Of a stretch of 57,469 bases of DNA, positions 5,730 through 51,940 are shown piece after piece (positions within the stretch are counted from its first letter, which is position 1; every line of letters begins with the position of its first letter). The notes below the pieces were generated by a model. The model was not told where the DNA came from. It worked only from the letters and a program-made list of their open reading frames with translations, and searched no databases. The translations under genes and the position numbers were made by a program. This DNA is from Thermoproteota archaeon (lineage in GTDB: Archaea > Thermoproteota > Thermoprotei_A > Sulfolobales > Ignisphaeraceae). The stretch is from NCBI GenBank assembly GCA_013154235.1, contig JAADCV010000002.1, forward strand, positions 1-57,469, given 5' to 3'.

Positions 5730-6242
5730 ATGACTCCGGCTCTATCGATGAAGCGCGTGGAGTACGTGAATGCAATGCGCGAGGTGGCTAGGAGCTTGGA
5801 TGTTGTGCTCGAGAACAGCATTAGGAGGTCTATCTACGAGTACACGCTCGCTAACGGCTTTGCGGTATTTAACGAGATCTGGAAGGCTCTAAAGAAGTCG
5901 AAAGCCACTATTAACTGGCACATAAAGATTCTCAAACGGAGCGGCATCGTGGAGGAGATAAGGCTGCTTAAGTACCGCATCATATACGTGAAGAGGTTCG
6001 AGCACGTCGCCATAAAGAGGTTTCTCTGCGAGAAGAAGCCTAGCGGTGGCTACAGATGGGAGAGGATAAGGAGGCTCCTAACGGACCTCTGCTACAACGA
6101 TGATATCGAGAGTCTAGCCGGTAGATACGGGTTGAGCAGCGACGAGGTTGAGGGGCTCAAGAAGCTGCTGAACGCGTTTGTCGACGGGGCTCGCGGCGCT
6201 GCATGCGCTAGGAAGCTAGCTAGGTTATCCTGTAGCGAGTAG
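5730..6242 (+). CDS. Winged-helix (ArsR-like) transcriptional regulator
   Basis: This 170-residue protein has a winged helix in its first half: SIRRSIYEYTLANGFAVFNEIW, then KSKATINWHIKILKRSGIVEE as the recognition helix and wing. The C-terminal half is helical and charged, with a second HTH-like stretch (SLAGRYGLSSDEVEGLKKLL). A few cysteines lie in the second half but form no clear motif. It lies between an AT-rich control region and the convergent hypF gene, whose 3' end it overlaps by 18 bases. Autoregulation through the 5437-5498 repeats is possible. The ligand is unknown. Confidence 0.75.
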   Translation: MTPALSMKRVEYVNAMREVARSLDVVLENSIRRSIYEYTLANGFAVFNEIWKALKKSKATINWHIKILKRSGIVEEIRLLKYRIIYVKRFEHVAIKRFLCEKKPSGGYRWERIRRLLTDLCYNDDIESLAGRYGLSSDEVEGLKKLLNAFVDGARGAACARKLARLSCSE

Positions 6243-28791: not shown

Positions 28792-29175
28792 ATGGGTAGC
28801 GAGCTGGGGCTACTGCTATCCATTAGCTTGAGCGGGTACGGAATGGCCTTCGCGATAATATCGCTCATCGTCGCGATACCCTACTTCCTGCTACGCAGAG
28901 AGGTAGCTCCCAAACCAACGGCTAGAGCTGAGCAGCCGAGCGCAGCTGGAGCTAAGGAGGTTGCTGGAGCTTCTGAGGAGGAGGCTATGCTGCTAGCAGC
29001 TGCCGTGGCTGCCGCTATGCACGTGCACACCTCCCTTAGGAGGAGAGCCCCCGCGGCTAGAGCCTACACGGGCTACGCACCCGTCTCCGGATGGATCGTA
29101 GCTGCTAGGATCGACCAGATGACCTCGCTCGAGAGGGGATGGGGTGGTAGAGCATGGCGAACGTATCGCTCCTAG
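28792..29175 (+). CDS. Sodium-pump decarboxylase gamma-type subunit (OadG-like)
   Basis: The 127-residue protein (from ATG 28792, with GGGGTGAGG ahead of it) has one N-terminal membrane segment (GMAFAIISLIVAIPYFLL), an Ala/Pro-rich linker and a region EEEAMLLAAAVAAAMHVH followed by a basic tail. Size, single helix and position directly before the beta subunit, overlapping it by 22 bases, fit the gamma subunit that anchors the biotin-dependent decarboxylase. Sequence conservation in this family is weak, so the call rests mostly on context. Confidence 0.72.
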   Translation: MGSELGLLLSISLSGYGMAFAIISLIVAIPYFLLRREVAPKPTARAEQPSAAGAKEVAGASEEEAMLLAAAVAAAMHVHTSLRRRAPAARAYTGYAPVSGWIVAARIDQMTSLERGWGGRAWRTYRS

Positions 29176-34288: not shown

Positions 34289-35188
34289 TTGGAGGGCTCG
34301 GTTAGCTACAGCTACGTGGTTGAGCTTAGCTGCGTAGCGCAGCCCCTAGACCCCTGGGTGAGCCCGGAGTTCACTGGGAAAGTGGTTAAGAGCTTCATCT
34401 ACCTAGTGCCCGAGCTAGGCTACGTCAAGAACATCTACAGTCTCCCCTCTAAGCCCAAGCCCGTGTCCGTATCCCCACTGATATCCGAGGGAAGAGCCCT
34501 CGTAGGGTCTCAGAAGACTCCGGTGGCTCCAGGAACGAGGCTCAGCTTCTTCATTAGGGTCGCGGTGCCGTCAATGGATGAGGTAACGATGTTTCCCAGC
34601 TTCGATACCGAGGTTGTGTTCGGCAAGACGAGGTTTCGCGTGTGGCTCGAGAGTATGGAGGTCGTGAGCGTCGACGCGATAAGGGCTGGGCTCGACGAGG
34701 GTAAGCTAGCTAGGCTAAGGTTTCTTAGCCCCGTGCTCCTATCGAGCAAGCTCATGGCTCCACCCCTTCCGAGCTTCCTCAAGAGGGTTGCGAGCATCGA
34801 CAACTTCGTGCTGTATCCATCCCTAGGACACATATTCAGCTACTTAGCGAGGCTCTGGAACTCGCTGTTCCCCCACAAGCCCATATCGCGCAAGTACACC
34901 TCGGAATGGAGCGCTTACTTCATAGGGAGGCTCGCTGAGGTGCTGATCAAGGTCGTCGACTATAGGAGCAGGCCCCTAACCGTGGTCTACGACGCAACGA
35001 GGAGGCCTAGGGGCTTCGTAGGCTGGCTACTGATCGATATCCCCAAGCTAGGGAGCGATAGAGGGTCTAGGAGGATTCGCGAGATATTCGATAGGCTCCT
35101 AGGGCTAGCTAGGGTAATGGGAATAGGTCGCTCGAGAGCAATAGGCTTCGGATACACAATTGTAGAGCTAATCGACAGAAAGAGATAG
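34289..35188 (+). CDS. cas6: Cas6-like CRISPR RNA endoribonuclease
   Basis: The 299-residue protein resembles crenarchaeal Cas6: an N-terminal RAMP-type half (TGKVVKSFIYLV, PKPVSVSPLI) and a C-terminal glycine-rich loop RVMGIGRSRAIGFGYTIVEL, the best Cas6 landmark. Cas6 cuts CRISPR repeat RNA to make crRNAs. No repeat array and no other cas gene are visible in this window, so it is a solitary gene acting on distant arrays, or a relic. The catalytic His is not conserved across the family and cannot be assigned. The TTG start follows a GGGGTGAA site. Confidence 0.75.
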   Translation: MEGSVSYSYVVELSCVAQPLDPWVSPEFTGKVVKSFIYLVPELGYVKNIYSLPSKPKPVSVSPLISEGRALVGSQKTPVAPGTRLSFFIRVAVPSMDEVTMFPSFDTEVVFGKTRFRVWLESMEVVSVDAIRAGLDEGKLARLRFLSPVLLSSKLMAPPLPSFLKRVASIDNFVLYPSLGHIFSYLARLWNSLFPHKPISRKYTSEWSAYFIGRLAEVLIKVVDYRSRPLTVVYDATRRPRGFVGWLLIDIPKLGSDRGSRRIREIFDRLLGLARVMGIGRSRAIGFGYTIVELIDRKR

Positions 35189-35248
35189 TTCGTACATTTG
35201 TAGGGCTCGCTAAACCCAGCATTGAGATATTCTTGCGGGTGGCCATTG

Positions 35249-35262
35249 AAATATTTATTTAC
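35249..35262 (+). promoter_or_regulatory. TATA-box promoter of the secreted-protein island
   Basis: AAATATTTATTT at 35249-35260 is a good TATA element. Transcription near 35282 would give a short leader containing AGGGGAT (35284-35290) ahead of the GTG at 35297. The ORF-track start at 35222 lies upstream of this promoter. Confidence 0.55.
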
Positions 35263-35296
35263 TCACTTACATATTCTCTGTGAAGGGGATTCAAAG

Positions 35297-37744
35297 GTGG
35301 GCCTGCGCACTATATGCATATCTTTGCTAAACATGTTATTGATCATAATGATACTAACTATTAATGTAGCGTTAGTGTCAGTAACTCCAAGCTTTGGTAC
35401 AAATAGTTATCAAATACCTAATCAGTATCTATTCATCTCAACTAATTCTGATCGAAATGTACTAGAATTACTGCACCGTGTCATGGAGCGCGATGCTAGG
35501 TTACTTAGCTACATAGAATTCTATTCAATTTACATAGCTGGAAGAACTATAGAAATCGATGCACGCAATGTCCCGCAGCTCATAGGTGTCAACCCTAGGC
35601 ACCTCCACTTCCTAGCCTACGTACCTAACCGTGGATGGATTGAAGTTCCTGTTGAAGTCTTCGATAAGTGCTTAAACATCGGCGAGGATATGAAGTACTG
35701 CTTAGTACCTCAAAGGATAGATCGTGATACTAGGGTGCTTGTGAAGGCACCACCATCTATATCTATGTCTTTGTCCATAGCGTTAAGGTATATAGCATCA
35801 TTGCAAAGGATTGTTGGTAAAATTGAGAGGGCATTCACCTTGTCGCTTAAAATTGTAGCCGCTGGAAAAATATATACAGTAAGCTATCTAGTGGTAGTCT
35901 CTAGATATGTCAATAAATGGGTTCTAGAGGGTGAGGTTAAGGTGAACAATGTAGAGAACGACTTTACGGCTTGGGGCCTACAGAATACTTACCATAGGTT
36001 AAGGCAGCTACTAGGGTTCGCTTTAGGAACGTCGCTAGCTGAGATACTACGAGTATACTCAGTATACCCAATGAAGCCCTCATTCATCGAGGTAAAGCCG
36101 CTTAGCGTAGGCGAGGTTCGGAAAGCGCAATCGGGAGATTCGAGTAGCACGTACGTGCTCGAGTTTGTGCCGCTCCTACGTTCATGGAGTGCAAACGGTT
36201 CAGCATCGCCTTCACCTCTCGTAATCGATGCTATGTATCAGTTCCTTCCAGAGGGCAAGCTCTCGAAGTATATCATTGGGTATCCGGTTACCCAATCGGT
36301 AACGCTATCCATAACCGTTAAGAGACTAGAAGGGAGTGGGGAAGCGTCTCTAACCGTGGAATTAGTATGCAGTAATAACGTTGTTTATAGTAAGAGCTAC
36401 GTTGTATACATGGATTACGCGAGGATTAAGCCAACGTTCTACTGGCCACCGTGTAACACGGCTGAATTCAAAGTATTGCTGAGAGGAGGCGGCAAATGGT
36501 CTGTATCCATAGCCGGCATGGTAGTAGTGCACCTAGTAGAGAGTAACGCATTGAAGAATTCTAAGTTGCGTAAGGAACTGAGGCTATATGTACTAGGTTC
36601 CCCGAGCAGCAATGGACCATCATCGTTCATTACCTTACCACTCGGCTCCACGCGAGGGGACTACATAGCTCTGCTACTCGTACCTTTCAATCTGGCATTG
36701 ATACCTAGCAAATTCTACGACGGAAGCAGCAGCAAGCTGCTGACGATACGCGTAAGCAACCTTGGTAGCACCGGAGCGTACATAACATTGTGTTTTGCTG
36801 GAGCGTGTAGCAATAAGGTCTTTGTAGGTGCTCGGTCGTCTACAGACATCGCCATAGATATATGGGCGTCGTCAATAGGATCCTACTTCTGGTACCTGCA
36901 ACCCGTCCCACTATTCATAGAGGTAGAGAAGGCTTCGAATGACGGTACTGCCGTACTGGAGCTACAGCCAGAGAACTCGCTGACACTACTTGCGAGACCC
37001 GTGAGACCCTTCTATCCTGGCATGCTTGGAAGCAACCCCTACATAGTTACTACACTGCTTAGCGATAACTGTGTAGCTGCTTGGCAAAGCGGTGTCCAGG
37101 AGTTCAGGGGAGGGATAGACTTTACGGCTATGGGCTACTCAGGGAGTAGAGGAGGATTTGCAAGTGTGTTTGCATGGTTTGGAACTAGTGTTGAGAATAC
37201 AGTTGGTGGTAGTCAGCCGAGAATTGACATAGCTATACTGTTTTCGGGCAACCTTGTCGAGAAGTACGTACCTTACGAAATCCTCGAGCTCGTAACGACG
37301 CTATCAGGAGAGTGGGTTGGGAAAGGGATTCCCGAAGCCTTATCCTACAACAAGGGATCTAACCTACCCAAGCTTCCAGAAGTACCTCCACCCCTAGCCA
37401 TAGGCACGGGACTCATAGCCTCTGCCACCCTTCCAGCACTTGATAGCATTGTAGGTATGTACGATCTCGCTGCCTGGCTATGGAACCAGCTACTTAAGTA
37501 TGCGAAGAACGAAGTCGAGATACATAAGTCAGACGAAAGTGTTACATACAGGTGGGTTCATGGACCTTACGCACCTCCCGTAGAGACAATGTTCTTCGAG
37601 GTAGTTGATGAAGAGACTCCCATACCCTCTTACGTTCATACGCTAAACGTAACCATACGTGTACACGGTGCAGAAGAGTACGGTCCTTATCAATCCCTAG
37701 ATGCGTATCTAAAGAGCAACCTGAGGTTAGCTACGCTACCCTAG
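35297..37744 (+). CDS. Large secreted protein of unknown function
   Basis: From GTG 35297 the protein is 815 residues with a signal peptide (ISLLNMLLIIMILTINVALV) at the very start, which supports this start over 35222. The rest is a beta-rich extracellular chain with several Ser/Gly-rich turns and few charged helices. I see no known domain and no C-terminal anchor. Codon use differs from the neighbours: more AT-ending codons and noticeably fewer CTAG words, suggesting recent acquisition. It is followed 9 bases later by a multi-pass membrane protein, so the two probably work together at the membrane. Confidence 0.7.
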   Translation: MGLRTICISLLNMLLIIMILTINVALVSVTPSFGTNSYQIPNQYLFISTNSDRNVLELLHRVMERDARLLSYIEFYSIYIAGRTIEIDARNVPQLIGVNPRHLHFLAYVPNRGWIEVPVEVFDKCLNIGEDMKYCLVPQRIDRDTRVLVKAPPSISMSLSIALRYIASLQRIVGKIERAFTLSLKIVAAGKIYTVSYLVVVSRYVNKWVLEGEVKVNNVENDFTAWGLQNTYHRLRQLLGFALGTSLAEILRVYSVYPMKPSFIEVKPLSVGEVRKAQSGDSSSTYVLEFVPLLRSWSANGSASPSPLVIDAMYQFLPEGKLSKYIIGYPVTQSVTLSITVKRLEGSGEASLTVELVCSNNVVYSKSYVVYMDYARIKPTFYWPPCNTAEFKVLLRGGGKWSVSIAGMVVVHLVESNALKNSKLRKELRLYVLGSPSSNGPSSFITLPLGSTRGDYIALLLVPFNLALIPSKFYDGSSSKLLTIRVSNLGSTGAYITLCFAGACSNKVFVGARSSTDIAIDIWASSIGSYFWYLQPVPLFIEVEKASNDGTAVLELQPENSLTLLARPVRPFYPGMLGSNPYIVTTLLSDNCVAAWQSGVQEFRGGIDFTAMGYSGSRGGFASVFAWFGTSVENTVGGSQPRIDIAILFSGNLVEKYVPYEILELVTTLSGEWVGKGIPEALSYNKGSNLPKLPEVPPPLAIGTGLIASATLPALDSIVGMYDLAAWLWNQLLKYAKNEVEIHKSDESVTYRWVHGPYAPPVETMFFEVVDEETPIPSYVHTLNVTIRVHGAEEYGPYQSLDAYLKSNLRLATLP

Positions 37745-37753
37745 GTGTAATTG

Positions 37754-38563
37754 ATGGGTACTGCTATGCGTATCCGCGCAATAGTGTTTTTACTTGCCTA
37801 TATTGCTATGTACGTAGTTCTCTTCAATTGGTACCCGTTCTTTAAGTCGAAGCCCCTAGCTTACGAGCTTATAATACCGTCTGTCCCCGCTATTCGAGCC
37901 CTAACAATATCCCTCATAATCTGGAACTTCGTCTACGTGACTTACCTATACGTGCTTACAGCATCCCTAGTGAAGATGGTTTCGCTACGTGGACTAGGTA
38001 AGGTCACGATCTTCGGAATAGTGCTGGGGCTCGCCTCGACGTGCATAGCTCTAGCGATTGCCTACCCGTACCTAGTATCTACGGGTAGACAGCTAGTTGA
38101 GCTAGCGCGAAGTGTTTACGGGTTCGCTAAGGCGATGCACTTAGGGATCGCTAGCTACGTACTGAACTTCTTCGTGATTCCAGCGCTCGTACCCATCGCT
38201 ACGCTCTACGCAATCAAGGGCCTCACAATGATTAGAGAGCTGGCCAAGGCTCGTCCAGTTCGCTTAGCGCTACTCCTAGTGATCTCAGTGTTGACCCACG
38301 ACTTTCTAGAGCCTTTGGTGAACATCGCAGCTACCCAAGCACTACTAAGCGTTGGTGGAGCAATGGCCGCCTTACCCTACTATCGAGGCTACGATCCTAG
38401 AACACTAGAATTCTTAACTAACGCGCTTAGAGAAGGAGGAACACTAACTCCACCGCCCTGGGGCATGGTGCTGGGCTCGGTAGTGTTTGCAATCGTCGTA
38501 GCGATGAGCATCGAGAAGCTAGTCCTGGACTCTCAACGCTACTCAGCTCCCAGATCGGCGTAG
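37754..38563 (+). CDS. Multi-pass membrane protein of unknown function
   Basis: The 269-residue protein (ATG 37754 preferred over TTG 37751) has about six membrane segments, for example IVFLLAYIAMYVVLF, ALTISLIIWNFVYVTYLYVL, FGIVLGLASTCIALAIAYPYLV and GMVLGSVVFAIVVAMSIE. I recognise no family. It directly follows the large secreted protein and may anchor or export it. Composition returns toward the window average along its length. Confidence 0.65.
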   Translation: MGTAMRIRAIVFLLAYIAMYVVLFNWYPFFKSKPLAYELIIPSVPAIRALTISLIIWNFVYVTYLYVLTASLVKMVSLRGLGKVTIFGIVLGLASTCIALAIAYPYLVSTGRQLVELARSVYGFAKAMHLGIASYVLNFFVIPALVPIATLYAIKGLTMIRELAKARPVRLALLLVISVLTHDFLEPLVNIAATQALLSVGGAMAALPYYRGYDPRTLEFLTNALREGGTLTPPPWGMVLGSVVFAIVVAMSIEKLVLDSQRYSAPRSA

Positions 38564-41823: not shown

Positions 41824-42108
41824 TTGAATCTAGCTACGTGGGTCACCGACTTCATAGTTTTCTCGATGCCCTTCTACTTCGCTGCCTTCGCCCTCTACAT
41901 AGCTAGGGCAATAAAGGGGCCCACGGTCCCAGACATGGTTCTCGCCGTCGACGCCCTAAGCTACGACCTAGCTGCCTTCCTCGTACTCCTAGGTATCTTG
42001 TTTAGGGCGCCGATAATGATTCCCTGCGCTATCGTGCTCGTGCTCTGGGTGTACGCCCTAGACATATACATGGCTAAGTACTTCGAGGCGGGTGAGATAG
42101 GTGAGTAG
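41824..42108 (+). CDS. mbhB: Hydrogenase antiporter module, MrpF/MbhB-like subunit
   Basis: The 94-residue protein has three membrane helices (FIVFSMPFYFAAFALYIARAI, DLAAFLVLLGILF, IPCAIVLVLWVYALDIYMA) and the MrpF pattern with KGPTVPDMVLAVDAL. It is the first gene of the operon and overlaps the MrpG gene by 8 bases. MrpF helps form the ion-translocating membrane arm. Confidence 0.85.
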   Translation: MNLATWVTDFIVFSMPFYFAAFALYIARAIKGPTVPDMVLAVDALSYDLAAFLVLLGILFRAPIMIPCAIVLVLWVYALDIYMAKYFEAGEIGE

Positions 42109-42484
42109 CCTAGTTAGCTGGATCCTCGTAGGCGTGGGGCAGGCGCTGGTGATAATAGGGATATTCTGCGACCTAGCTGCCTCCATAATGATGCTTCGCC
42201 TACCCAACTTCTTCGCTAGGCTCCACGCACTGACCGTGGGAAGCGTTGGAGGAGCATTCATTCCGTTAATAGGCGCTGCGCTGATAGCTGCTGGATGCGA
42301 CTTCCTAGGCCCCTACCGCTGGTTCATGGCCGGGGGAGCGGTGGTTACAGCGATAATAGAGTACGTGCTAGCTGGAGCTGGCACGCACGCTATCGCGAGA
42401 GCTGTCTACAGAGCTAAGGCCGCCCCGCTCAAGCCTATCGTTGCCGACAAGCTAGCTGAGGACCGAGGGGGTGAGGAGCGTTGA
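42101..42484 (+). CDS. mbhC: Hydrogenase antiporter module, MrpG/MbhC-like subunit
   Basis: The 127-residue protein with three helices has the MrpG signature MLRLPNFFARLHALTVGSVGGAFIPLIG near residue 25-55. The GTG start overlaps MrpF. Its stop (TGA 42482-42484) overlaps the next ATG by one base. It belongs to the small-subunit cluster E/F/G of Mrp antiporters that is shared with Mbh hydrogenases. Confidence 0.88.
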   Translation: MSSLVSWILVGVGQALVIIGIFCDLAASIMMLRLPNFFARLHALTVGSVGGAFIPLIGAALIAAGCDFLGPYRWFMAGGAVVTAIIEYVLAGAGTHAIARAVYRAKAAPLKPIVADKLAEDRGGEER

Positions 42485-42738
42485 TGGCTGTAGACATCGT
42501 TATGGGTCTACTAGCTGCCTCAGCCCTCATCTCCGTCATAGCTACGGTGCTCGCTGTGCAGGCTAGGGATCTGCTGAAGGCCGTGATCTTCTCAGCTCTT
42601 CAGAGCGTTGCCTACACGCTCATGTACTTCATGCTCATGGCGCCAGACATCGTGCTTGTCTACGCTGCTGTAGCCGTAGGTATCTATCCCCTGATACTCA
42701 TACTCTTGATTAAGAAGGTCGGTAGGTACGAGGTGTAG
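42484..42738 (+). CDS. mbhD: Hydrogenase antiporter module, MbhD-like (DUF4040) subunit
   Basis: The 84-residue hydrophobic protein has three helices and the DUF4040/MbhD motif ARDLLKAVIFSALQSVAYTLMYFMLMAPD, equivalent to part of MrpA C-terminal or MrpB. ATG 42484 overlaps the upstream stop (TGATG), so TTG 42481 of the ORF track is not needed. It lies 4 bases before the next gene. Confidence 0.85.
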   Translation: MAVDIVMGLLAASALISVIATVLAVQARDLLKAVIFSALQSVAYTLMYFMLMAPDIVLVYAAVAVGIYPLILILLIKKVGRYEV

Positions 42739-42742
42739 AGCC

Positions 42743-43561
42743 TTGCTCCGAGACGTAGCCTTCGCCGTAACCCTCGTGGTGTTCATCGTGCTCCTAGCTG
42801 TAGCTACAGGTCTAGGGGGCCTAGGCCCTCTACCACCGCCTAGGCTGAGGCCGCTAGCGGTAAACGTGCTGAACACCACCTACAACCCGTACTACGCCGC
42901 TAGGAACTTCACCGCGGATGCGCCAGAGGCTGTAACAGCTGTCGTCTGGGACTACAGAGGCCTCGACACCGTGTTCGAGACAGCCGTGTTCTACGGAGCT
43001 ATCATAGGGGCCCTAGCGCTGTACCGAGAGGTGTCTAAGAGGGTCGAGGAGTCGAGGCCGAGGGGGCTATCGACCATAGTCAAGGTGTCTACGGCGGTGA
43101 TGGTCGTAGCTATAGCTGCTGTAGGAGTCTCGACAGCGATGCACGGTCAGCTGACTCCAGGAGGAGGATTCCAAGCTGGTAGCATAATAGCGGTGGCGCC
43201 AGTCGTGCTCCTCGTGGTCTTCTCCAAGTCCTTCCTGGAGAAGGCTGGGGTTAGGTACGCTAAGATGGTTGCGCTCAGGAGCGCTGCCCTCGTAGGGATA
43301 GGGCTAGCAGCCCTCGCGGTAGCAATAGCTGCTGGAGCCATGGGTTGCTGGGGCTACGTGCTCCAGAACCAGCCTAAGCCCGATGCCCCGCTAGGCTACC
43401 CGCCTAGAGCGCTGGACGTGCCCTCGGGAGGCTCACTCATGGTATTCAACGTGCTCGAGATGCTTGCGGTAGCAGCTGGGTTCACGGTGGTGTTCCTCGT
43501 GCTCTCGACGAGCGAGAAGCTAGCTAAGGAGGAGGTTGTTGGTGAGGAGCATGGATACTGA
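42743..43561 (+). CDS. Hydrogenase antiporter module, MrpB-like subunit (MbhE+F)
   Basis: The 272-residue protein combines an N-terminal MbhE-like part (first helix and a loop ending VVWDYRGLDTVFETAVFYGAI) with a C-terminal MrpB/MbhF domain (STAMHGQLTPGGGFQAGSIIAVAPVVL). In Pyrococcus these are two genes (mbhE, mbhF), so this looks like a natural fusion. GQLTPGGGFQAG is the diagnostic MrpB loop. TTG start. It overlaps the MrpC gene by 11 bases. Confidence 0.85.
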   Translation: MLRDVAFAVTLVVFIVLLAVATGLGGLGPLPPPRLRPLAVNVLNTTYNPYYAARNFTADAPEAVTAVVWDYRGLDTVFETAVFYGAIIGALALYREVSKRVEESRPRGLSTIVKVSTAVMVVAIAAVGVSTAMHGQLTPGGGFQAGSIIAVAPVVLLVVFSKSFLEKAGVRYAKMVALRSAALVGIGLAALAVAIAAGAMGCWGYVLQNQPKPDAPLGYPPRALDVPSGGSLMVFNVLEMLAVAAGFTVVFLVLSTSEKLAKEEVVGEEHGY

Positions 43562-43982
43562 GTTCGTTAGAGTAGCGTACATGATAGTCGTGCTATCTAT
43601 GTACGTAAACATAGGTGTGTCGCTCTACGCAGCCCTAGCAAAGCCCAACCTCGTCAAGAAGATAATAGCGCTGACAATACTCGGGGACTCGGTCAACACA
43701 TTCATAATACTCGTGGGCTACAGGTTCTGGAGACCTGGAGTATTCCTACAGCCACCCGTGCTAACGAATCTTAGGCCTACGAGCGAGGTCATTAGGCAGT
43801 TCCTAGAGAAGGCGGTTGACCCGATACCGCAGGCGCTCGTGCTCACAGCCATAGTGATCAACCTCGCTGTAACAGTGTTCCTAGCCACCGTAGCCCTGCA
43901 CATGTATAGGCACTTCGGAACCGTTAACATGGATGTTGTTGGGAGGTTGAAGAGGTATGAGGTCAGGAAGGAGATGGCTTAG
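43551..43982 (+). CDS. mbhG: Hydrogenase antiporter module, MrpC/NuoK-like subunit (MbhG)
   Basis: The 143-residue protein is MrpC/NuoK-like: three helices with KPNLVKKIIALTILGDSVNTFIILVGY, and the conserved loop ending PIPQALVLTAIVINLAVT (DPLPQALVLTAIVI in the family). ATG 43551 is preceded by GGTGAGG, so I use it instead of the ORF-track start at 43536. It belongs to the channel-forming core between the pump and redox arms. Confidence 0.9.
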   Translation: MDTEFVRVAYMIVVLSMYVNIGVSLYAALAKPNLVKKIIALTILGDSVNTFIILVGYRFWRPGVFLQPPVLTNLRPTSEVIRQFLEKAVDPIPQALVLTAIVINLAVTVFLATVALHMYRHFGTVNMDVVGRLKRYEVRKEMA

Positions 43983-44472
43983 GTGCGTAGCTCCAGCGAT
44001 AATGGCGTTCGTGGTCTACATAGTGTACACTGGAGCTGCTAGGCTCTACGACATAACTACGGGTGCTATAGCTGCCGTGGCTGTCGGGGCGCTCATGGGC
44101 ACGCTGGTGGTCGCGGACTGGAGGAAGAGCCTTAGCATTAGGAGGCTTGGGTGGCTAGCCCTCTACACGCTTAAGTACTTCTTCGTTCACGAGGTTAGGG
44201 CTCACGCGGAGATGATCCGGAAGTGCCTAGGCCCAAAGATGGACATATCTCCATCGATAGTGAGGGTCCCGATAAGGTCTAGAACGGGGTTCGGGGTAAC
44301 GATGGTCTCGATAGCGATAACGAACACCCCGGGGACCGTGGTCGTGGACCTCGATGAGGAGAAGGGGGTGCTGTACGTGCACTGGCTCTTCACCAAGACG
44401 CTTGTTGACTCCGAAGCGTATCGCGAGGTTGCGGAGGACTTCGATAGGTACGCCCAGAGGGTGTTCGAGTAA
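43957..44472 (+). CDS. mbhA: Hydrogenase antiporter module, MrpE/MbhA-like subunit
   Basis: The 171-residue protein has two N-terminal helices and the MrpE C-terminal cytoplasmic part, with VSIAITNTPGTVVVDLDEEKGVLYVHWL, the conserved MrpE strand pair. In Pyrococcus mbh the E-type subunit comes first, whereas here it follows MrpC, so gene order is rearranged. The ATG at 43957 lies inside the MrpC gene (26-base overlap). The stop overlaps the next ATG by one base (TAATG). Confidence 0.85.
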   Translation: MRSGRRWLRCVAPAIMAFVVYIVYTGAARLYDITTGAIAAVAVGALMGTLVVADWRKSLSIRRLGWLALYTLKYFFVHEVRAHAEMIRKCLGPKMDISPSIVRVPIRSRTGFGVTMVSIAITNTPGTVVVDLDEEKGVLYVHWLFTKTLVDSEAYREVAEDFDRYAQRVFE

Positions 44473-46139
44473 TGGATCCCTGGCTCCAGCTCCTAGCGGC
44501 GACACCCATAGTGCTTCTCGTAGCTAGCTTCGCGACTCCGCTGATATCGGCTAGGGTTAGGAGCCCGAGGTTCTACTCCTCCTACCTAACAGCGCTTGCT
44601 CTCCTAACCGTCGTAACAACGTGGGGTGTCGCGATAGACTACGCGACGAGGATGAAGCCCCTCGTCTACCCCTTCGGCGGGTGGCCACCGCCTCTAGGCA
44701 TAAGCTTCGAGGTTGATGGGCTTAACGCGTTCGTCGGCCCCATAGTCTCGCTCGTGTTTCTAGCGGCTGCGGTGTTCTGCTTCTGGTACTTCGAGAGGAT
44801 GGGTAAGGGGTGCGAGTGGCTAACAGCCCTAGCTATGCTGATGATGGCTGGGAGCCTAGGCTGCATATACACTGGAGACGTCTTCAACTTCTTCGTCATG
44901 CTGGAGGTGGCGTGCATATCGAGCTACGCCATGGTAGCGTTCTTCAGGAAGAGGAGGTGGGCTATCGAGGCAGCTGCTAGCTACGCGTTCGTTGGAGCGC
45001 TTGCAACAACGCTCTTCCTCCTAGGCGCTGTATACATCTACGCATCCTTCGGAACGCTGAACATGGCTGACATAGCGGCTAAGAGCCTAGGCCTCCACCT
45101 AAGCGCCTTCACGCGCCTCTCGGGCTCGTGCTCGTCGGGGATGTGCTTCGGGAACGCTGCTGTTGGGATAGCTGTAGCTGTAGCGCTTATGCTCTGGGCG
45201 CTCACCTTCGAGGCCGGTATATTCCCCAACAACTTCTGGGTTCCGAGCGCTTACAGCGAGGCTCCTAGCCCAGCCTCAGCGATGTTCGCTGGCATCGTGG
45301 ATAAGGTCGGTACCTACGGTGTTCTGAGGATAGTGCTTACGCTGCTACCAATAGGGGCGAGCACCATAGCCGTGAGGATATGGGGCGCTCCCTACAGGGA
45401 TGTTGTTCTAGAGGTGCTAGCGTTCCTAGGGATAGTCACGGGGTACCTAGGAGCCTTCCTAATGGCCGTGCAGAACGACGTTAAGAGGCTCCTAGCCTAC
45501 AGCACGATTAGCCACATAGGGATAATGTTCTCGACCCTAGCGGCAGCGACCATACCTAGCGTAGCTGCCCTCGCAACAGCCTCGATAGTGTTCCACATGG
45601 CTACCCACGCATTTGGAGAGGCGATGCTCTTCATAGCCCTAGGAGCTATCGCCACGGTGGTAGGATCGAGGAGGCTGAGCGACATGGCTGGACTAGGGCG
45701 GAGGCATCCGGGGATAGCTGTGCTTGTAGCCATAGCGCTCCTGAGCCTCCTAGGAATGCCGCCGCTAGGAGGCTTCTTCAGCAAGTACATGATGTTCCTA
45801 GCTCTCGTAGAGGCTGGGTACATACCCTACGCAGTATCGATCGTGATCATATCTGGGATCTCGGCTGTGGGATACTTCAGGATAATGTACTCGCTGTTCA
45901 TGCCTAGGGCCAGCGGCTCTAGCGAGAGCCCGAGCGCGGGCTCTGGATCGGTTGGGAGAAGCACGTACGTAGCAACATCTATCCTAGCCGCGGCGATCAT
46001 AGCGCTTGGAATAGCGTTCGTCTGCGGCTACCTAGCAACCCCGCTAGTGAAGTACGTTGGGATTGCGGCAACGCATAAGGGAGTCGAGCTCTACGCTAGG
46101 ACAGCAGCTGAGGTCGCTGCAAAGCTCCTCCCTAGGTGA
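44472..46139 (+). CDS. mbhH: First MrpD/NuoL-like ion-pump subunit (MbhH)
   Basis: The 555-residue protein has about 14 helices. It keeps the key charged residues of antiporter-like pumps: Glu in FNFFVMLEVACISSY (helix 5), Lys in AGIVDKVGTYGVLRI (helix 7) and Lys in AVQNDVKRLLAYSTISHIG (helix 8). WVPSAYSEAPSPASAMFAG is the usual proton-antiporter signature. Intact residues predict active Na+/H+ pumping. It is followed by a 103-base gap with a promoter, then a second pump of the same class. Confidence 0.93.
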   Translation: MDPWLQLLAATPIVLLVASFATPLISARVRSPRFYSSYLTALALLTVVTTWGVAIDYATRMKPLVYPFGGWPPPLGISFEVDGLNAFVGPIVSLVFLAAAVFCFWYFERMGKGCEWLTALAMLMMAGSLGCIYTGDVFNFFVMLEVACISSYAMVAFFRKRRWAIEAAASYAFVGALATTLFLLGAVYIYASFGTLNMADIAAKSLGLHLSAFTRLSGSCSSGMCFGNAAVGIAVAVALMLWALTFEAGIFPNNFWVPSAYSEAPSPASAMFAGIVDKVGTYGVLRIVLTLLPIGASTIAVRIWGAPYRDVVLEVLAFLGIVTGYLGAFLMAVQNDVKRLLAYSTISHIGIMFSTLAAATIPSVAALATASIVFHMATHAFGEAMLFIALGAIATVVGSRRLSDMAGLGRRHPGIAVLVAIALLSLLGMPPLGGFFSKYMMFLALVEAGYIPYAVSIVIISGISAVGYFRIMYSLFMPRASGSSESPSAGSGSVGRSTYVATSILAAAIIALGIAFVCGYLATPLVKYVGIAATHKGVELYARTAAEVAAKLLPR

Positions 46140-46186
46140 TGCCTATGGTGAGGCCCAGCGTATCGGTGTGTATAAGCAAGGGTCTA

Positions 46187-46210
46187 CAGCTATTTATACA
46201 CTTATTTATC
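46187..46210 (+). promoter_or_regulatory. Internal promoter within the hydrogenase cluster
   Basis: TATTTATAC at 46191-46199 and CTTATTTAT at 46201-46209 are overlapping TATA candidates about 35-45 bases before the ATG at 46243. This is the only sizeable gap in the 14-gene cluster. The second half (second pump plus the redox module) could be transcribed separately. Confidence 0.45.
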
Positions 46211-46242
46211 GCTGAGCTCAGAGAGCTGTAAGGGGCTAGGCC

Positions 46243-47763
46243 ATGGACTTGCTGGACCCCCGCATCTTCGTCTACGCGGTTGTTTCGGCAGCCTTCGCCA
46301 TAGTGCTCGCCGCCGACTCCCGCAAGTGGAGAGGATCGATACCTCTGAAGATGGTTGGCTACGGCCTCCTCCTAGCTATAGCTGTAGAGAGCCTCATAAC
46401 TAGGTACCCGATGGACTGGCTCTCCGGATTCTTCTCTCTCCTAGCAGCGATAGTCTCCATAGCTGTGACTACCTACGTCGAGGGCTACGAGGAGAAGAAG
46501 TTTCCGGGGAGGAACCTCCGGTCTCTGATAGACCTCTTCGCAATCAGCATATACGCCGTGTTCGCGTCCCCCAACCTCATAGCGTTCATAATGTTCTGGA
46601 TAATGGCTGAGATAGCGGGCTTCTTCGCAATAGTCTTCGAGATGAGTAGGAGAACGCTGGTCGCAGGCCTTAGGTACCTCATAGTGTCTATGATACCAGC
46701 CGACATATCACTGATAGCGCTCCTAGCCCTATCAGCTATGAAGGTCGGGTTCACTAGAGCGCTGACCCTACCCATGAGCTCCCTCCACCAGGTGCTGGGA
46801 ACGATCTCGGTAGCGCTAGGGATCATAATGGCGCTGGGATTCATGGCTAAGGCTGCGGTAGCCCCCCTCCACTTCTGGTTACCGGATGCCCATGCACTTG
46901 CTCCAGCGCCAGCATCGGCTCTGCTCAGCGGGATAATGGTGAAGATGGGTATTTACGGAATACTTAGGATAGCTCCCTGCCTACCCAAGCTATCGCTAGC
47001 GGTGATCATGGGCCTAGCGTGCATAACCGTTGTCTACGGAGGGCTGCAGGCCATCGTGCAGGGAGACATCAAGAGGCTCCTTGCCTACAGCACCATAGAG
47101 AACACGAGCCTCATGGTTATGGCTGCTGCGCTAGGCAGCTACCTAGGTCTCCACAGCGCATTCATAGCTACCTACCTCCTAGCAGCTAGCCATGCTCTGT
47201 TCAAGGCTAGCCTATTCATGGACTCCGGCATCGTGGAGATCTCTGCCCACACTAGGGAGGTCTACAGGCTAGGATTCCTATCTAGGTACCTAACAACACC
47301 GTCGCTATCCTCGCTAATCTCGGTGCTCTCACTGATGGGTGTCCCACCGACGATAGGGTTCCTAGCGAAGCTCTACCTATTCATGTGCCTCATAGACGCT
47401 ATCTACAAGTCGACTGTTGTCGGGATACCGCTGATAGTGGTCACGGCGGTAGGCACAGCTCTAGCCATAGCCTACGGCTTGAAGTACCTAACGATATACT
47501 GGGGCTCGCTCGAGAGGGAGGGCGAGGTCGAGAAAGTCGAGGACAACAGGCTGCTGGGAAGCGAGCTAGGGCTCGCTGCCACAAGCATAGGGCTAGCGAT
47601 ACCGATGTACGTAGCTATAGCTGGCCTAGCTCCGGAGGCGATGGTGTACGTAGTGCCATTCGCATTCGTGCAGGTGTTCTTCGTAGCGCTGCTGTACTTC
47701 GTGTATAGCCACATACGCGTAATAGCTAGAGAGAGGCAGTGGATGGGTGGAGCAATACCATGA
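46243..47763 (+). CDS. Second MrpD/NuoN-like ion-pump subunit
   Basis: The 506-residue protein is a second antiporter-like pump with Glu in FIMFWIMAEIAGFFAIV, Lys in SGIMVKMGIYGILRI, Lys in AIVQGDIKRLLAYSTIENTS and the signature FWLPDAHALAPAPASALLSG. It has about 14 helices and an extended polar loop near the C-terminus. Two pump subunits in one complex resemble the membrane-bound sulfane reductase (Mbs/Mbx) layout more than the one-pump Mbh hydrogenase. Its stop overlaps the next start (ATGA). Confidence 0.92.
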   Translation: MDLLDPRIFVYAVVSAAFAIVLAADSRKWRGSIPLKMVGYGLLLAIAVESLITRYPMDWLSGFFSLLAAIVSIAVTTYVEGYEEKKFPGRNLRSLIDLFAISIYAVFASPNLIAFIMFWIMAEIAGFFAIVFEMSRRTLVAGLRYLIVSMIPADISLIALLALSAMKVGFTRALTLPMSSLHQVLGTISVALGIIMALGFMAKAAVAPLHFWLPDAHALAPAPASALLSGIMVKMGIYGILRIAPCLPKLSLAVIMGLACITVVYGGLQAIVQGDIKRLLAYSTIENTSLMVMAAALGSYLGLHSAFIATYLLAASHALFKASLFMDSGIVEISAHTREVYRLGFLSRYLTTPSLSSLISVLSLMGVPPTIGFLAKLYLFMCLIDAIYKSTVVGIPLIVVTAVGTALAIAYGLKYLTIYWGSLEREGEVEKVEDNRLLGSELGLAATSIGLAIPMYVAIAGLAPEAMVYVVPFAFVQVFFVALLYFVYSHIRVIARERQWMGGAIP

Positions 47764-48128
47764 GCTCGGCTAGGGCAACCCTCGTCTCCCGGATAGAGGA
47801 CTACCTCCTTAGAGTGCTGCGCAGGCTAGCTCCAGGAGTGGACAAGCTTATGATGGTCTACGTCGCTGGCCAGAGCTTCGAGAGTGTCGAGAGGGAGCTC
47901 ACGAGAAAGATAACGATGGGCACCCTAAAGGCCTACAGAGTGTTCGGAGGAGTCGAGGGTAGCGCCGTGAGGATATACCGGAGGTTCACCTCGGCGCTAG
48001 CAGCCCTCCAGTCCTCCCTCGAGGACATAGTTTCCTTCTCCTCTAGCTACATGAGCCTCCTCTTCGTAGTATCCATGCTTGCGGTGGTGGTGACAGCTTG
48101 GACTCTACACCTGTTTCCGCATCCCTAG
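47760..48128 (+). CDS. mbhI: MbhI-like connector subunit
   Basis: The 122-residue protein (ATG 47760, overlapping the upstream stop) has a long charged amphipathic helical region (SRIEDYLLRVLRRLAPGVDKL, FESVERELTRKITMGTLKAY) and one C-terminal membrane helix (LLFVVSMLAVVVTAWTLHLF). This matches MbhI, the counterpart of the C-terminal lateral helix of NuoL that braces the membrane arm. Sequence conservation is low, so position and shape carry the call. Confidence 0.7.
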   Translation: MSSARATLVSRIEDYLLRVLRRLAPGVDKLMMVYVAGQSFESVERELTRKITMGTLKAYRVFGGVEGSAVRIYRRFTSALAALQSSLEDIVSFSSSYMSLLFVVSMLAVVVTAWTLHLFPHP

Positions 48129-48979
48129 CAGCTGCGCTAGCTGCAGCATCCTTCCTCCTCCCTCCGCTGCTCGACGGTGTTGAGAGGAAGATTAGGGCTG
48201 CTATACACAGCAGGATAGGGCCTCCCCTCACGCAGACCTGGTTCGATATACTGAAGCTCTGGTCTAAGGAGGCTAAGCTTCCTAGGGGTGCGGAGCTAGC
48301 TGGGCTAACCGTGCTCATAGGGCTGTCCATAGCTCTAGCTCTAGCAGCCACCCTATCGACCTTCGCAGCCTTCGGCCTCGTGGGCGTCGGGCCCGTGGTG
48401 GCGGTCATGGTTATGGTGTTCGCACTGCACAGCATCTCTATGGCTACGGGCTGCGCATCATCGAACCCCTTCGCAACCATAGGGAGCTTTAGAAGGGTGT
48501 TCCTAAACGTTGTTAACGAGGTTGGCCTAGCGCTATCCGTAGCCCTAGCCCTAGTCTCTAGATGGTTCATACCAAGCTGGAAAGGGTGGGCTCTCCTAGG
48601 CATATCCACGGGGATGATGCTCGTAGCGTGCTTCTGCGCTAGCGGTAGGCTCCCCTACGATATTCACGAGGCTGAGCCAGAGCTAGCGTCTGGGACAGTG
48701 ATAGAGCTCAGCGGCCCGCTCCTAGCAGCAGAGCTCTACAGCCACCTCATCGAGAGGTGGGTTCTAGCAGCCTTACCATTCTACGTGTCTCTAGCACCCT
48801 TCCTTCCCTCAGCGTGGGCTAGGTGCCTAGCCCTAGTCCTAGGCTCCTCAGGGCTCTGGACGCTCTTCGCCGTGACCAGCGCTACGCTGGGGAGGAGCAG
48901 GGCTGACCTAGCTCTGAGGAGCTTGGGAGCGATCTACACAGCCTCTACAATTGCTTGGGTGGGAGTATGGCTAGCGTGA
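48098..48979 (+). CDS. mbhM: NuoH/MbhM-like membrane subunit
   Basis: The 293-residue protein has eight or so helices and the NuoH signatures DGVERKIRAAIHSRIGPPLTQTWFDILKLW near the N-terminus and ASGRLPYDIHEAEPELASG in the middle. In complex I and Mbh this subunit links the redox module to the membrane arm. The TTG start at 48098 overlaps the MbhI gene by 31 bases. A slightly later start is possible, but the DGVERK motif must be kept. Confidence 0.92.
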   Translation: MDSTPVSASLAAALAAASFLLPPLLDGVERKIRAAIHSRIGPPLTQTWFDILKLWSKEAKLPRGAELAGLTVLIGLSIALALAATLSTFAAFGLVGVGPVVAVMVMVFALHSISMATGCASSNPFATIGSFRRVFLNVVNEVGLALSVALALVSRWFIPSWKGWALLGISTGMMLVACFCASGRLPYDIHEAEPELASGTVIELSGPLLAAELYSHLIERWVLAALPFYVSLAPFLPSAWARCLALVLGSSGLWTLFAVTSATLGRSRADLALRSLGAIYTASTIAWVGVWLA

Positions 48980-50628
48980 GCGAGATACTGAAGGAGCTAG
49001 AGGTCGAGCTAGGGACGAAGGTGCTGAACATATCTAGGATAGAGGGAGGAGTGATAGTATCTATAGAGCCCTCCGCGCTCCCCCGCGCATCGCTGATACT
49101 GGTTTCGAAGGGTGCTAGGCACCGAATGATGGTTGCTAGCGACGATAGGGAGTGGCTAGGGAGGTTCTCGCTCTACTACATCTTCGGAATCGATAGAGAG
49201 GGCCAGAACATAGTGATTCACCTACCTCTAGACCCCGATAACCCAGTTGCCCCAAGCGTTGTCGATATCGTTAGGGCTGTGGACTGGTACGAGCTAGAGG
49301 CCAAGGACTTGATGGGTATCGAGTTCGAGGGCAGGTACCCAGTGCCTAGGCTCATAATGCCGGACACGTGGCCCGAGGGTGTCTACCCGCTTAGAAAGGA
49401 CGTTAGCGTTGAGGAGCTTAGGAGGCTCTCGGAGCCCTGGATAAGCGAGAGGATAAAGCTCGAGGAGGTTGAGGAGATCGTCAGGATACCCATAGGTCCC
49501 TACCACCCAGCGCTCCACGAGCCAGAGTACTTCGAGCTTTACGTTAGGGGGGAGAAGGTTGTTGGCGCTAGGTACGTAGGGTTCATGGTTCACCGCGGGA
49601 TCGAGAAGCTCGCGGAGAGAATGAAGTACGATCAAGTGCCGTTCATAGCCGAGAGGATATGCGGTATATGCGGCTTCGTCCACTCCACGAGCTACTGCCA
49701 GGCAGCTGAGGCAGCTCTAGGGATAGAAGTTCCTGAGAGGGCTGAGTTCATCAGGAGCATCATGCTCGAGGTGGAGAGGATACACAGCCACCTCCTATGG
49801 GTTGGAGTAGCGCTCCACCTGCTAGGCTACGACACGGGCTTCATGCACGTGTGGAGGATTAGGGAGAGGATCATGAGGGTTGCGGAGATGCTCAGCGGCA
49901 GCAGGAAGACCTACGGCCTCAACGTTCTAGGCGGCGTTAGGAGGGACTTCGATAGGGATAGGCTCGAGAAGGCTGTTAGGGAGGCTGAGGAGATAGGGAA
50001 GGAGTTCGCCGAGCTGGTCAAGATATCTATAGACGTTCCGCAGGTTAGGGCTAGGCTTAGGGGAACCGGAATACTCTCTCCTGGCGAGGCTAGGGCCTTC
50101 GCTGTTGTTGGGCCAACGGCTAGGGGATCGGGTATAGACATCGACGTGAGGAAGGACTTTCCCTACGCTGCCTACAAGAGGATCAAGCCTAGGGTGCCGG
50201 TCTACAGCGAGGGAGATAACCTCGCTAGAACGCTGGTGAGAGTAGACGAGGTCTTCGAGAGCATCGAGCTACTCAAGCATCTAGCGGATCAGATCCCGAG
50301 CGGGTCGATAAGGGCTGAGCTACCACCTAGCTTCGAGCCCTACCGCATAGGGATAGGGGCTGTCGAGGCCCCGAGGGGAGAGGTCATACACATGGTCATA
50401 ACCGGTAGGTACACACCGTATAGATGGAGGGTTAGAGCACCCACGTACCAGAACCTCATAGCTGTGCCAACAATGCTCAGAGGAGTTGAGCTAGCGGACG
50501 CAGCCCTAACAATAGCTAGCATAGATCCCTGCTTCTCGTGCACCGACAGAGCCATAGTCATTGACCTTAGGAGGGGGAGCGTCGAGAGGATCCCGCTCAG
50601 AAAGATTGTTTCGAGGTGGAGACCATGA
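48967..50628 (+). CDS. Fused NuoC-NuoD type hydrogenase large subunit (MbhK+MbhL)
   Basis: The 553-residue protein (ATG 48967 after GGTGGGAG, not the upstream TTG of the ORF track) joins an N-terminal NuoC-like domain (about 1-150, DLMGIEFEGRYP, PDTWPEGVYPLRK) to a NuoD-like catalytic domain. Both NiFe-binding pairs are intact: ERICGICGFVHS (about 235) and DPCFSCTDR (about 525), followed by a short C-terminal extension that a maturation protease could remove. This marks a true group 4 hydrogenase, not a complex I or sulfane reductase subunit. HycE of group 4a has the same fusion, whereas Pyrococcus Mbh has separate genes. Confidence 0.93.
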   Translation: MASVSEILKELEVELGTKVLNISRIEGGVIVSIEPSALPRASLILVSKGARHRMMVASDDREWLGRFSLYYIFGIDREGQNIVIHLPLDPDNPVAPSVVDIVRAVDWYELEAKDLMGIEFEGRYPVPRLIMPDTWPEGVYPLRKDVSVEELRRLSEPWISERIKLEEVEEIVRIPIGPYHPALHEPEYFELYVRGEKVVGARYVGFMVHRGIEKLAERMKYDQVPFIAERICGICGFVHSTSYCQAAEAALGIEVPERAEFIRSIMLEVERIHSHLLWVGVALHLLGYDTGFMHVWRIRERIMRVAEMLSGSRKTYGLNVLGGVRRDFDRDRLEKAVREAEEIGKEFAELVKISIDVPQVRARLRGTGILSPGEARAFAVVGPTARGSGIDIDVRKDFPYAAYKRIKPRVPVYSEGDNLARTLVRVDEVFESIELLKHLADQIPSGSIRAELPPSFEPYRIGIGAVEAPRGEVIHMVITGRYTPYRWRVRAPTYQNLIAVPTMLRGVELADAALTIASIDPCFSCTDRAIVIDLRRGSVERIPLRKIVSRWRP

Positions 50629-51176
50629 GCTTCCTCAAGGTTCTAGCTGTAGCAGCTAAGCGCGGCAGAGCAACCATTAGGTACCCCCTCGAGCCACCCC
50701 TAGTAACACCCTTCTTCAGGGGGAAGATCAGCGTAGACCCCTCTAAGTGCATTGGCTGCGGAGCATGTGCAAGGATATGCCCCCCGAGAGCTATAGAGCT
50801 CGTTAGGGAGGACAACCGGTTCGTGCTGAGGTACTTCATAGGCAGATGCATCTTCTGCGGCATGTGCGCAGACACGTGCCCTCAGCAAGCTATCGAGGTT
50901 AGCCACGAGTTTGAGCTAGCAACGCCTAGGCTAGAGGATCTCTACGAAGAGGTTATCCATAGGCCAGCTACGTGTAGCGTGTGCGGAGAGCCCTACCTGC
51001 CTAGGAAGCTCGTCGAGAAAGCTATCGAGAGCTCGGGTATGGAGGTAGCTAGGGAGAGGCTAGAGATGTGTCCCCAATGCAGAAGGATCAGCACGGCTCA
51101 GGTTATAGCTAGCTCTAGACTTAGGTTCGGAAGCGACCTTCTTGAGGCTGGCGAGGTTGAGGAGCGTAGATCTTAG
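50625..51176 (+). CDS. mbhN: NuoI/MbhN-like 2[4Fe-4S] subunit with extra C-terminal Cys motif
   Basis: The 183-residue protein (ATG 50625, overlapping the upstream stop) has two ferredoxin motifs, CIGCGACARICPP and CIFCGMCADTCPQ, for electron entry from ferredoxin. It also carries an additional four-Cys set near the C-terminus (CSVCGEPYLPRK...MCPQCRR), like a zinc ribbon. HycF-type subunits have similar tails. The start of the NuoB gene lies inside its last 35 bases. Confidence 0.92.
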   Translation: MSFLKVLAVAAKRGRATIRYPLEPPLVTPFFRGKISVDPSKCIGCGACARICPPRAIELVREDNRFVLRYFIGRCIFCGMCADTCPQQAIEVSHEFELATPRLEDLYEEVIHRPATCSVCGEPYLPRKLVEKAIESSGMEVARERLEMCPQCRRISTAQVIASSRLRFGSDLLEAGEVEERRS

Positions 51177-51729
51177 AAAGGCTCTCGAGAGGATCAAGAG
51201 AAGTATCTGGGTCTTCCACCTGAACACAGGTAGCTGCAACGGGTGCGACATAGAGATCCTAGACGCTCTAACACCGTACTTCGACGTTGAGCGCTTCGGA
51301 ATCAAGCTCGTTGGAAGCCCTCGCCACGCTGACGTAGCGCTGCTGACGGGGCCCATAACCCTTAGGGCGCTGCCAAAGGTTGTTAGAGCTCTCGAGGCTA
51401 TGCCTAGGCCAAGGCTCGTTCTAGCGATAGGCGCTTGCGCTGTCGGGGGCGGAATATGGTTCGATTCCTACACGCTTCTAGGAGGGTTTCCGAGGCTTCT
51501 AAGGGTTCTGAAGAGCGCTGGGATCGAGATAGACGGTGTTGTGTACGTACCTGGGTGCCCAGCTAGGCCTGAGGCGATAATATATGGTGTGTGCGTACTG
51601 CTGGGGGTTGTGAAGCCCAAGGTGTCTAGAAGAGCTGTTGAAGCCCCTATACAGCTAGAGGTGACTCAAGCTGGTGAGGTACGTAGCGTACCTATGCATC
51701 GAGAGGGAGGTGCGGACACCCGTACCTAG
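51142..51729 (+). CDS. mbhJ: NuoB/MbhJ-like small subunit
   Basis: The 195-residue protein holds the proximal [4Fe-4S] cluster next to the NiFe site. The four ligands appear in TGSCNGCDIEILDAL, AIGACAVGGGIW and VPGCPARPEAIIYG. It belongs to the small-subunit family of group 4 hydrogenases, lacking the twin-Arg signal of uptake hydrogenases. TTG 51151 is an alternative start, both overlapping the upstream gene. Last recognisable redox subunit of the operon. Confidence 0.93.
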   Translation: MRLARLRSVDLRKALERIKRSIWVFHLNTGSCNGCDIEILDALTPYFDVERFGIKLVGSPRHADVALLTGPITLRALPKVVRALEAMPRPRLVLAIGACAVGGGIWFDSYTLLGGFPRLLRVLKSAGIEIDGVVYVPGCPARPEAIIYGVCVLLGVVKPKVSRRAVEAPIQLEVTQAGEVRSVPMHREGGADTRT

Positions 51730-51940
51730 ACACTTCTTAGCTCCCCTAGCCCTATGCCGAGAGGCTGTCGAGCTTAGCGAGAGCGATGTTGAGCAGCTCC
51801 CTAGCGAGGTTAGGGATAGGCTTAGGGGCAGGGGAGAAGTTACTGTTCCTATAGATAGGTGCCGCGCGCTCCTCCACAGAATCTCTAAGCTTAACCCGCC
51901 CCCCGAGAGCTACGTAAAGATAGTTGCTGTGCTCGACTAG
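51674..51940 (+). CDS. Small conserved-looking protein ending the hydrogenase operon
   Basis: I do not recognise this 88-residue soluble protein. It overlaps the NuoB-like gene by 56 bases in another frame and continues well past it, so the overlap is genuine only if this is a real gene. The later part, LSESDVEQLPSEVRDRLRGRG and VTVPIDRCRALLHRISKL, is charged and helical. An accessory or assembly factor is possible. Confidence is limited by the overlap. Confidence 0.5.
   Translation: MRYVAYLCIEREVRTPVPRHFLAPLALCREAVELSESDVEQLPSEVRDRLRGRGEVTVPIDRCRALLHRISKLNPPPESYVKIVAVLD

Follow-up and report, generated by a model that had tools for sequence, protein, structure and literature searches.

A two-pump, Mrp-linked group 4 [NiFe] hydrogenase cluster of the HycE lineage with a relocated acidic residue in one pump

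The window analyzed here, 57,469 nucleotides in length, is the entire contig C38 (JAADCV010000002.1) of a 1.6-Mb, 79% complete genome of a Thermoproteota archaeon, and its near relatives were found in Ignisphaera, Zestosphaera, and further metagenome-assembled genomes of the Desulfurococcales. Positions 41824-51940 carry 14 overlapping or adjacent genes, all co-directional on the forward strand, which probably encode a group 4 [NiFe] hydrogenase that evolves H2, translocates ions, and has no formate or CO dehydrogenase of its own. Support for this reading comes from the full gene set, the invariant ligands of the Ni-Fe site, genes for HypF and a probable HypE in the same window, the placement of the large subunit in a tree, the presence of the gene set in about 30 relatives, homologous complexes of Thermococcus onnurineus, and the fold of one of its 2 pumps. 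In that pump, an acidic residue regarded as a hallmark of the family was found one helical turn away from its canonical site.

The catalytic large subunit (48955-50628) is a NuoC-NuoD fusion of the HycE type, with matches to the Pfam families Complex1_30kDa, Complex1_49kDa, and NiFeSe_Hases. Both CxxC pairs of the Ni-Fe site are present, in the motifs RICGICG (C236/C239) and DPCFSCTDR (C526/C529), and the 4 cysteines do not vary among ten aligned sequences. A preliminary description of this DNA had already pointed out the intact motifs and the HycE-like fusion, and both are borne out. Next to the large subunit, the cluster encodes a NuoH/HycD/MbhM-like membrane anchor (48098-48979; NADHdh, 1e-29), a NuoI/HycF-like subunit with two [4Fe-4S] motifs (50616-51176; Fer4_7, 3.3e-14), and a NuoB/HycG-like small subunit with the motifs CNGCD...GAC...GCP (51142-51729; Oxidored_q6, 1.1e-24), so that the partner and membrane subunits by which group 4 is recognized accompany the two CxxC motifs. 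Among structures in the Protein Data Bank (PDB), the large subunit is closest to HycE of Escherichia coli (406 bits), followed by MbhL of Pyrococcus furiosus (271 bits) and the corresponding subunit of the sulfane reductase MBS (6u8y_L, 156 bits). The large subunit retains a C-terminal tail past DPCFSCTDR, though the HycI family was not found in the genome. An additional CxxC...CxxC at the C-terminus of the NuoI-like subunit may form a zinc ribbon.

In a tree of 95 large subunits, the window sequence lies within an archaeal clade of 43 rows (Shimodaira-Hasegawa-like approximate likelihood ratio test, SH-aLRT, 98). This clade is nested in a HycE-type set of 78 rows (support 99), together with HycE, HyfG, and enzymes linked to formate dehydrogenase (FDH) or carbon monoxide dehydrogenase (CODH). 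Mbh-type subunits with separate NuoC and NuoD, MBS-like subunits, and Fpo/Nuo-like subunits all fall outside this set. The window clade neighbours CODH/Mrp-linked rows of Thermococcus and Desulfurococcales, joined by a branch with a support of just 83. Several deep branches are long, including that of P. furiosus MbhL, which makes the base of the tree unsure and leaves the placement of the window sequence unaffected. The clade is one of already described multi-pump enzymes, with that of Staphylothermus marinus in it and the CODH- and FDH-linked enzymes of Thermococcus alongside. The preliminary description had raised the possibility that the enzyme stands between Mbh and MBS/Mbx in evolution, a view to which the 2 pumps, the MBS-like membrane arm, the intact Ni-Fe site, and the small margin by which MbsH is the top match of one pump all lend themselves. 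It is nonetheless rejected by the large-subunit tree, because the catalytic subunit belongs with the HycE lineage, joining HycE/HyfG and the FDH- and CODH-linked enzymes while classical Mbh-type and MBS-like subunits stand outside. With one pump belonging to a clade that has its own derived helix 5 (see below), we regard such an intermediate as very improbable.

In HydDB, formate- and CO-respiring Mrp-linked enzymes make up group 4b, and the trait of Mrp genes in the operon is present in the window cluster. The cluster shares the fused HycE-type large subunit with group 4a, whose E. coli representatives, formate hydrogenlyases (FHL) 1 and 2 with HycE and HyfG, have the same NuoCD fusion and include the closest solved catalytic subunit. 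These are formate-linked and have no Mrp genes, however, whereas the window cluster contains Mrp genes and no match to a formate dehydrogenase family. From P. furiosus Mbh (group 4d), with which it shares the Ni-Fe site, an Mrp module, and a separate MbhI, it differs in having two pumps rather than one, a fused rather than separate NuoC and NuoD, a separate position in the tree, and a large subunit that scores higher against HycE than against MbhL. P. furiosus MBS/Mbx likewise has 2 pumps and an Mrp-like module, and MbsH has a glutamate at the same site as one of the window pumps, but MBS/Mbx lacks the Ni-Fe site, of which all 4 cysteines are kept here, and its lateral helix is fused to MbsH'. 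Judged from its genes and their sequences, the enzyme belongs to the HycE/Mch/Mfh lineage of group 4 [NiFe] hydrogenases, probably near HydDB group 4b.

Two subunits of the cluster match Pfam Proton_antipo_M. The first, here called PumpA (44472-46139; 2.8e-47), is MrpD/MbhH/MbsH-like, with MbsH as its top PDB match (170.7 bits), just over MbhH (162.4 bits). The second, PumpB (46243-47763, 506 amino acids; 1.3e-42), is NuoL/HycC/MrpA/MbsH'-like. Canonical pumps of this family have a glutamate in transmembrane helix (TM) 5, lysines in TM7/TM8, and a lysine or glutamate in TM12. In a joint alignment, PumpA has Glu145 in TM5, Lys278 in TM8, and Lys438 in TM12, and carries Glu247 at the canonical site of the TM7 lysine, a substitution that it shares with MbsH and with the PumpA of each of the window's eight distinct close relatives. 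PumpB has Ile120 at the canonical TM5 glutamate site, within the motif IMAE (46600-46611), in which positions 46600-46602 encode the isoleucine and positions 46609-46611 a relocated glutamate, Glu123, three residues on; Lys203, Lys234, and Lys376 are kept. The TM8 and TM12 lysines are retained in both proteins, and each pump departs from the canonical pattern at one site, so the earlier statement that both have intact Glu and Lys residues has to be corrected. The model of PumpB (predicted local distance difference test, pLDDT, 90.4; predicted template modelling score, pTM, 0.92) has the full antiporter fold with broken TM7 and TM12, and aligns to HycC and MbsH' with a Z score of ~38; its fold also resembles NuoL.

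The altered TM5 is a property of a whole type of PumpB of about 500 residues. In all 61 of these short proteins, the canonical position is occupied by Leu, Ile, Thr, Phe, or Ser, and an acidic residue is found at i+3, which is Glu in 56 and Asp in 5. For comparison, 33 long pumps were taken that have the canonical TM5 glutamate, which was the basis of their selection; Gln or Ser occupies this site in a few long pumps outside that set. After thinning, the shifted-acid pumps (41 sequences) formed one side of a single branch with a support of 100, in a tree from which the TM5 columns had been removed. Misalignment as the source of the shift is disfavoured because the shifted pumps form one clade even without these columns, and the profile alignment runs gap-free through TM5 with top posterior confidence. 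As read from these alignments, the shift fits a conserved relocation with a single origin, and not decay. No description of a relocated TM5 acid was found in the literature searched, a search outside of which most subscription journals lie.

The retained acid and lysines favour the idea that PumpB pumps. In the interpretation to which we give even chances, the PumpB class would be a functionally distinct antiporter subunit, in which the TM5 carboxylate moved from i to i+3 once and was then fixed, and which would still pump by way of a rewired proton path; in the window subclade, this would be combined with the TM7 Lys-to-Glu change in PumpA. Alternatively, PumpB could be silent and serve as a structural or coupling element, leaving one working pump plus Mrp as in an ordinary Mbh. 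The absence of the canonical TM5 glutamate from all 61 short PumpB rows is in line with this, as is the finding that replacing the TM5 glutamate in NuoL and NuoM of complex I impairs function (PMC3046159). NuoN, however, tolerates the loss of its Glu133, and neither an acid at i+3 in every row nor the kept TM7, TM8, and TM12 lysines of the window protein would be expected under relaxed constraint, which makes a silent PumpB doubtful.

The structure alignment of PumpB stops at residue 548 of HycC and residue 553 of MbsH', in chains of about 603 residues whose C-termini carry a lateral helix and the last TM (PMC9474812, PMC7684303). Directly following PumpB is an open reading frame (ORF) of 129 amino acids (47739-48128) without a Pfam match, which is MbhI-like in its position and modelled helices. 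Nearly every locus with a short PumpB has an ORF of about 95-145 amino acids between the genes for PumpB and NuoH, and the C-terminal segment of its product is hydrophobic in almost all cases. The 129-residue protein is modelled as two long helices, an amphipathic helix and a C-terminal TM, and a W..G motif is conserved at the point where PumpB and this ORF are split. A sequence search of the ORF against the lateral-helix regions of long PumpB proteins gave no match. From its position and size, the W..G motif, and the limits of the structure-based alignment, we infer that it is the equivalent of MbhI and would contribute the lateral helix HL missing from PumpB.

By homology to MBS and FHL, the subunits in the membrane would be ordered as the NuoH-like subunit, PumpB with its separate lateral-helix partner, PumpA, and, farthest away, the Mrp module. 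Reduced ferredoxin would donate electrons to the NuoI-like subunit, whose two [4Fe-4S] clusters would hand them on to the proximal cluster in the NuoB-like subunit; from there they would reach the Ni-Fe site and reduce protons to H2. The energy would then be passed into the membrane via the NuoH-like subunit, and the distal Mrp module is predicted to export Na+ against H+, a scheme of coupling drawn from MBS, FHL, and the complexes of T. onnurineus.

A partner for formate or CO was not found. The window cluster contains no FDH or CODH, and no Molybdopterin-family gene was detected in this 79%-complete genome. The sole Prismane-family gene in the genome encodes a protein of 459 amino acids that looks like a hybrid-cluster protein and not a CODH, as read from its sequence and not from a family test. 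A hidden formate dehydrogenase or CODH, for which the genome was searched, was thereby set aside as a candidate. With no FDH found and the Prismane-family protein resembling a hybrid-cluster protein, ferredoxin is therefore the most likely electron donor. A different donor is suggested by the surroundings of the cluster in most close relatives, where it adjoins genes for a SudA-like flavoprotein (Pyr_redox_2, ~355 amino acids) and a 4Fe-4S protein, through which the enzyme could be fed by NAD(P)H or exchange electrons between NAD(P)H and H2. An NAD(P)H link through such a pair has been proposed for Thermosphaera and Staphylothermus (PMC3035292, PMC2678158). In the window cluster the pair is absent and a gene for a GH5 cellulase comes next instead; the genome holds its own pair at the end of contig C31 (60655-61701; L151:8447-8956), with a flavoprotein that is 60% identical. 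The location of the pair outside the window cluster counts against a feed by NAD(P)H, as does the fact that forming H2 from NADPH is uphill at standard conditions without other input, and we consider it possible but unlikely.

The reaction could also run in the uptake direction, as group 4 enzymes are reversible. Gradient-driven oxidation of H2 would then reduce ferredoxin for biosynthesis, while the one-pump Mbh-type enzyme of the same genome (L047, see below) could evolve H2. The best-studied relatives evolve H2, however (PMC4731540, PMC5662883), and we judge uptake to be distinctly improbable. Several observations weigh against an H2-evolving, ion-translocating hydrogenase in general: no gene of the cluster codes for an electron donor, each pump has a substitution at one canonical residue, the usual maturation protease HycI was not found in this 79%-complete genome or in some near-complete relatives, and no report was found of a purified enzyme from this exact subclade.

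Chance or misassembly as an origin of the cluster was rejected, as the gene set recurs in many independent genomes. Of the fetched loci, about 30 pair a single PumpA with a single PumpB and have an Mrp set that is complete or almost so, and three pumps were seen in at least five; near-duplicates are included in both counts. The overall design of a fused HycE-type subunit with Mrp and several pumps is already known. In 2009, Anderson et al. described the genes Smar_1055-1071 of S. marinus (Smar3 complex) as encoding three MnhD/NuoLMN proteins, a complete Mnh set, NuoH, NuoI, and NuoB, along with a fused NuoCD (Smar_1061); they reported a grouping with hydrogenases 3 and 4 of E. coli and suggested a membrane-bound hydrogenase (PMC2678158). 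One of our loci (L152) matches the published gene order exactly. The S. marinus cluster has the same types of PumpA and PumpB as the window, but has a second PumpB, adjacent genes for a SudA-like flavoprotein and a 4Fe-4S protein, and an Mrp block placed after the hydrogenase block, whereas that of the window comes before it. The preliminary description had presented an MBS-like double-pump arm on an intact hydrogenase as a new combination. The likeness of the arm stands, given the top match of PumpA to MbsH and the fold of PumpB, but the combination is not new, as S. marinus has it plus a third pump. A PumpA with 2 PumpB proteins, and an Mrp set that is complete or nearly so, was seen in loci L064, L065, L031, L093, and L152.

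Related enzymes have been studied in Thermococcus. The Codh-Mch-Mnh3 complex of T. onnurineus makes H2 from CO (PMC4731540), and, with CO or formate as the substrate, the homologous complexes of this species produce H2 and generate a Na+ gradient (PMC4731540, PMC5662883). Like the window cluster, the CODH-linked clusters of Thermococcus (group 4b) have a HycE-type fused large subunit, a full Mrp set, one PumpA, and one PumpB. Unlike it, they contain CooS, CooF, and CooC, their PumpA retains the TM7 lysine, and their PumpB is long (~640 amino acids, with the C-terminal extension fused) and has the canonical TM5 glutamate. The formate hydrogenlyases of Thermococcus and Pyrococcus abyssi (fdh2-mfh2-mnh2, fdh-mhy) share the HycE-type catalytic subunit, Mrp genes, and several pumps (PMC2432063, PMC5662883), but include a formate dehydrogenase and, in P. 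abyssi and L122, at least three pumps. For P. abyssi, three pumps and a fused NuoCD have been reported (PMC2678158), and fdh-mhy of T. litoralis shares its design with the S. marinus cluster, as do the CODH- and formate-linked complexes of T. onnurineus. In Zestosphaera tikiterensis (L062/L161), a CODH-linked cluster has a short PumpB with the shifted acid and lacks Mrp genes in its vicinity, and the same genome also holds a SudA-linked cluster with Mrp (L160).

The window cluster thus adds to a known type of Mrp-linked hydrogenase with several pumps, and shows that two pumps are not a feature of MBS alone. Its useful new point is natural evidence on the pump mechanism. Whereas the TM5 glutamate counts as a hallmark of NuoL, NuoM, NuoN, and Mrp subunits, in an entire clade it has shifted by one turn with the lysines mostly kept; if the short PumpB proteins work, they would reveal which geometry of the charged axis is truly required. 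In addition, related catalytic modules occur with one, two, or three pumps, which may allow ion yields per H2 to be compared.

The remaining genes of the cluster complete its Mrp-like module. These encode MrpF/MbhB-like (41824-42108; MrpF_PhaF, 5.8e-13) and MrpG/MbhC-like subunits (42101-42484; PhaG_MnhG_YufB, 9.1e-13), an MbhD-like subunit corresponding to the C-terminal part of MrpA (42481-42738; MbhD, 1e-12), an MbhE-MbhF fusion with the MnhB domain at residues 112-248 (42743-43561; MnhB, 2.8e-15), a NuoK-like MrpC/MbhG (43536-43982; Oxidored_q2, 4.8e-17), and MrpE/MbhA (43957-44472; MNHE, 8.7e-33), whose position is kept in relatives. The set of MrpF, MrpG, MbhD, MnhB/MbhE-F, MrpC, and MrpE with two Proton_antipo_M proteins agrees with the complete Mrp-like set plus two pumps described before. 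The MbhE-MbhF fusion and the location of MrpE between MrpC and PumpA, which had been put forward as further distinguishing features, are real, but they are found throughout the clade and in Thermococcus. The last gene of the cluster is an ORF of 88 amino acids (51674-51940) after the NuoB-like gene, without a Pfam match, to which weak phmmer matches were found at the same place in many relatives.

Elsewhere in the window, the reverse strand carries the gene for HypF, the [NiFe] maturation carbamoyltransferase (6228-8540; HypF_C_2, zf-HYPF), adjoined by a gene for an AIRS-family protein (8553-9584; AIRS, AIRS_C) that is probably HypE. Two further hydrogenases were seen in the same genome. Contig C11 (L047:8549-15379) encodes an Mbh-type enzyme with separate NuoC and NuoD, one pump, an Mrp set, and an MbhD-E-F fusion, and contig C47 (L048:1-3517) contains a NiFe large-subunit gene that is cut by the contig end, near a gene for a Complex1_51K/FMN protein; the latter enzyme is probably a soluble NAD(P)-linked hydrogenase. 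A gene at 29154-30455 resembles that for the beta-subunit of Na+-transporting oxaloacetate decarboxylase, a further sign of sodium energetics. The region 34289-38560 contains a Cas6-like gene followed by ORFs of 840 and 270 amino acids without Pfam matches, and a 4Fe-4S dicluster protein is encoded at the extreme end of the contig (56974-57469).

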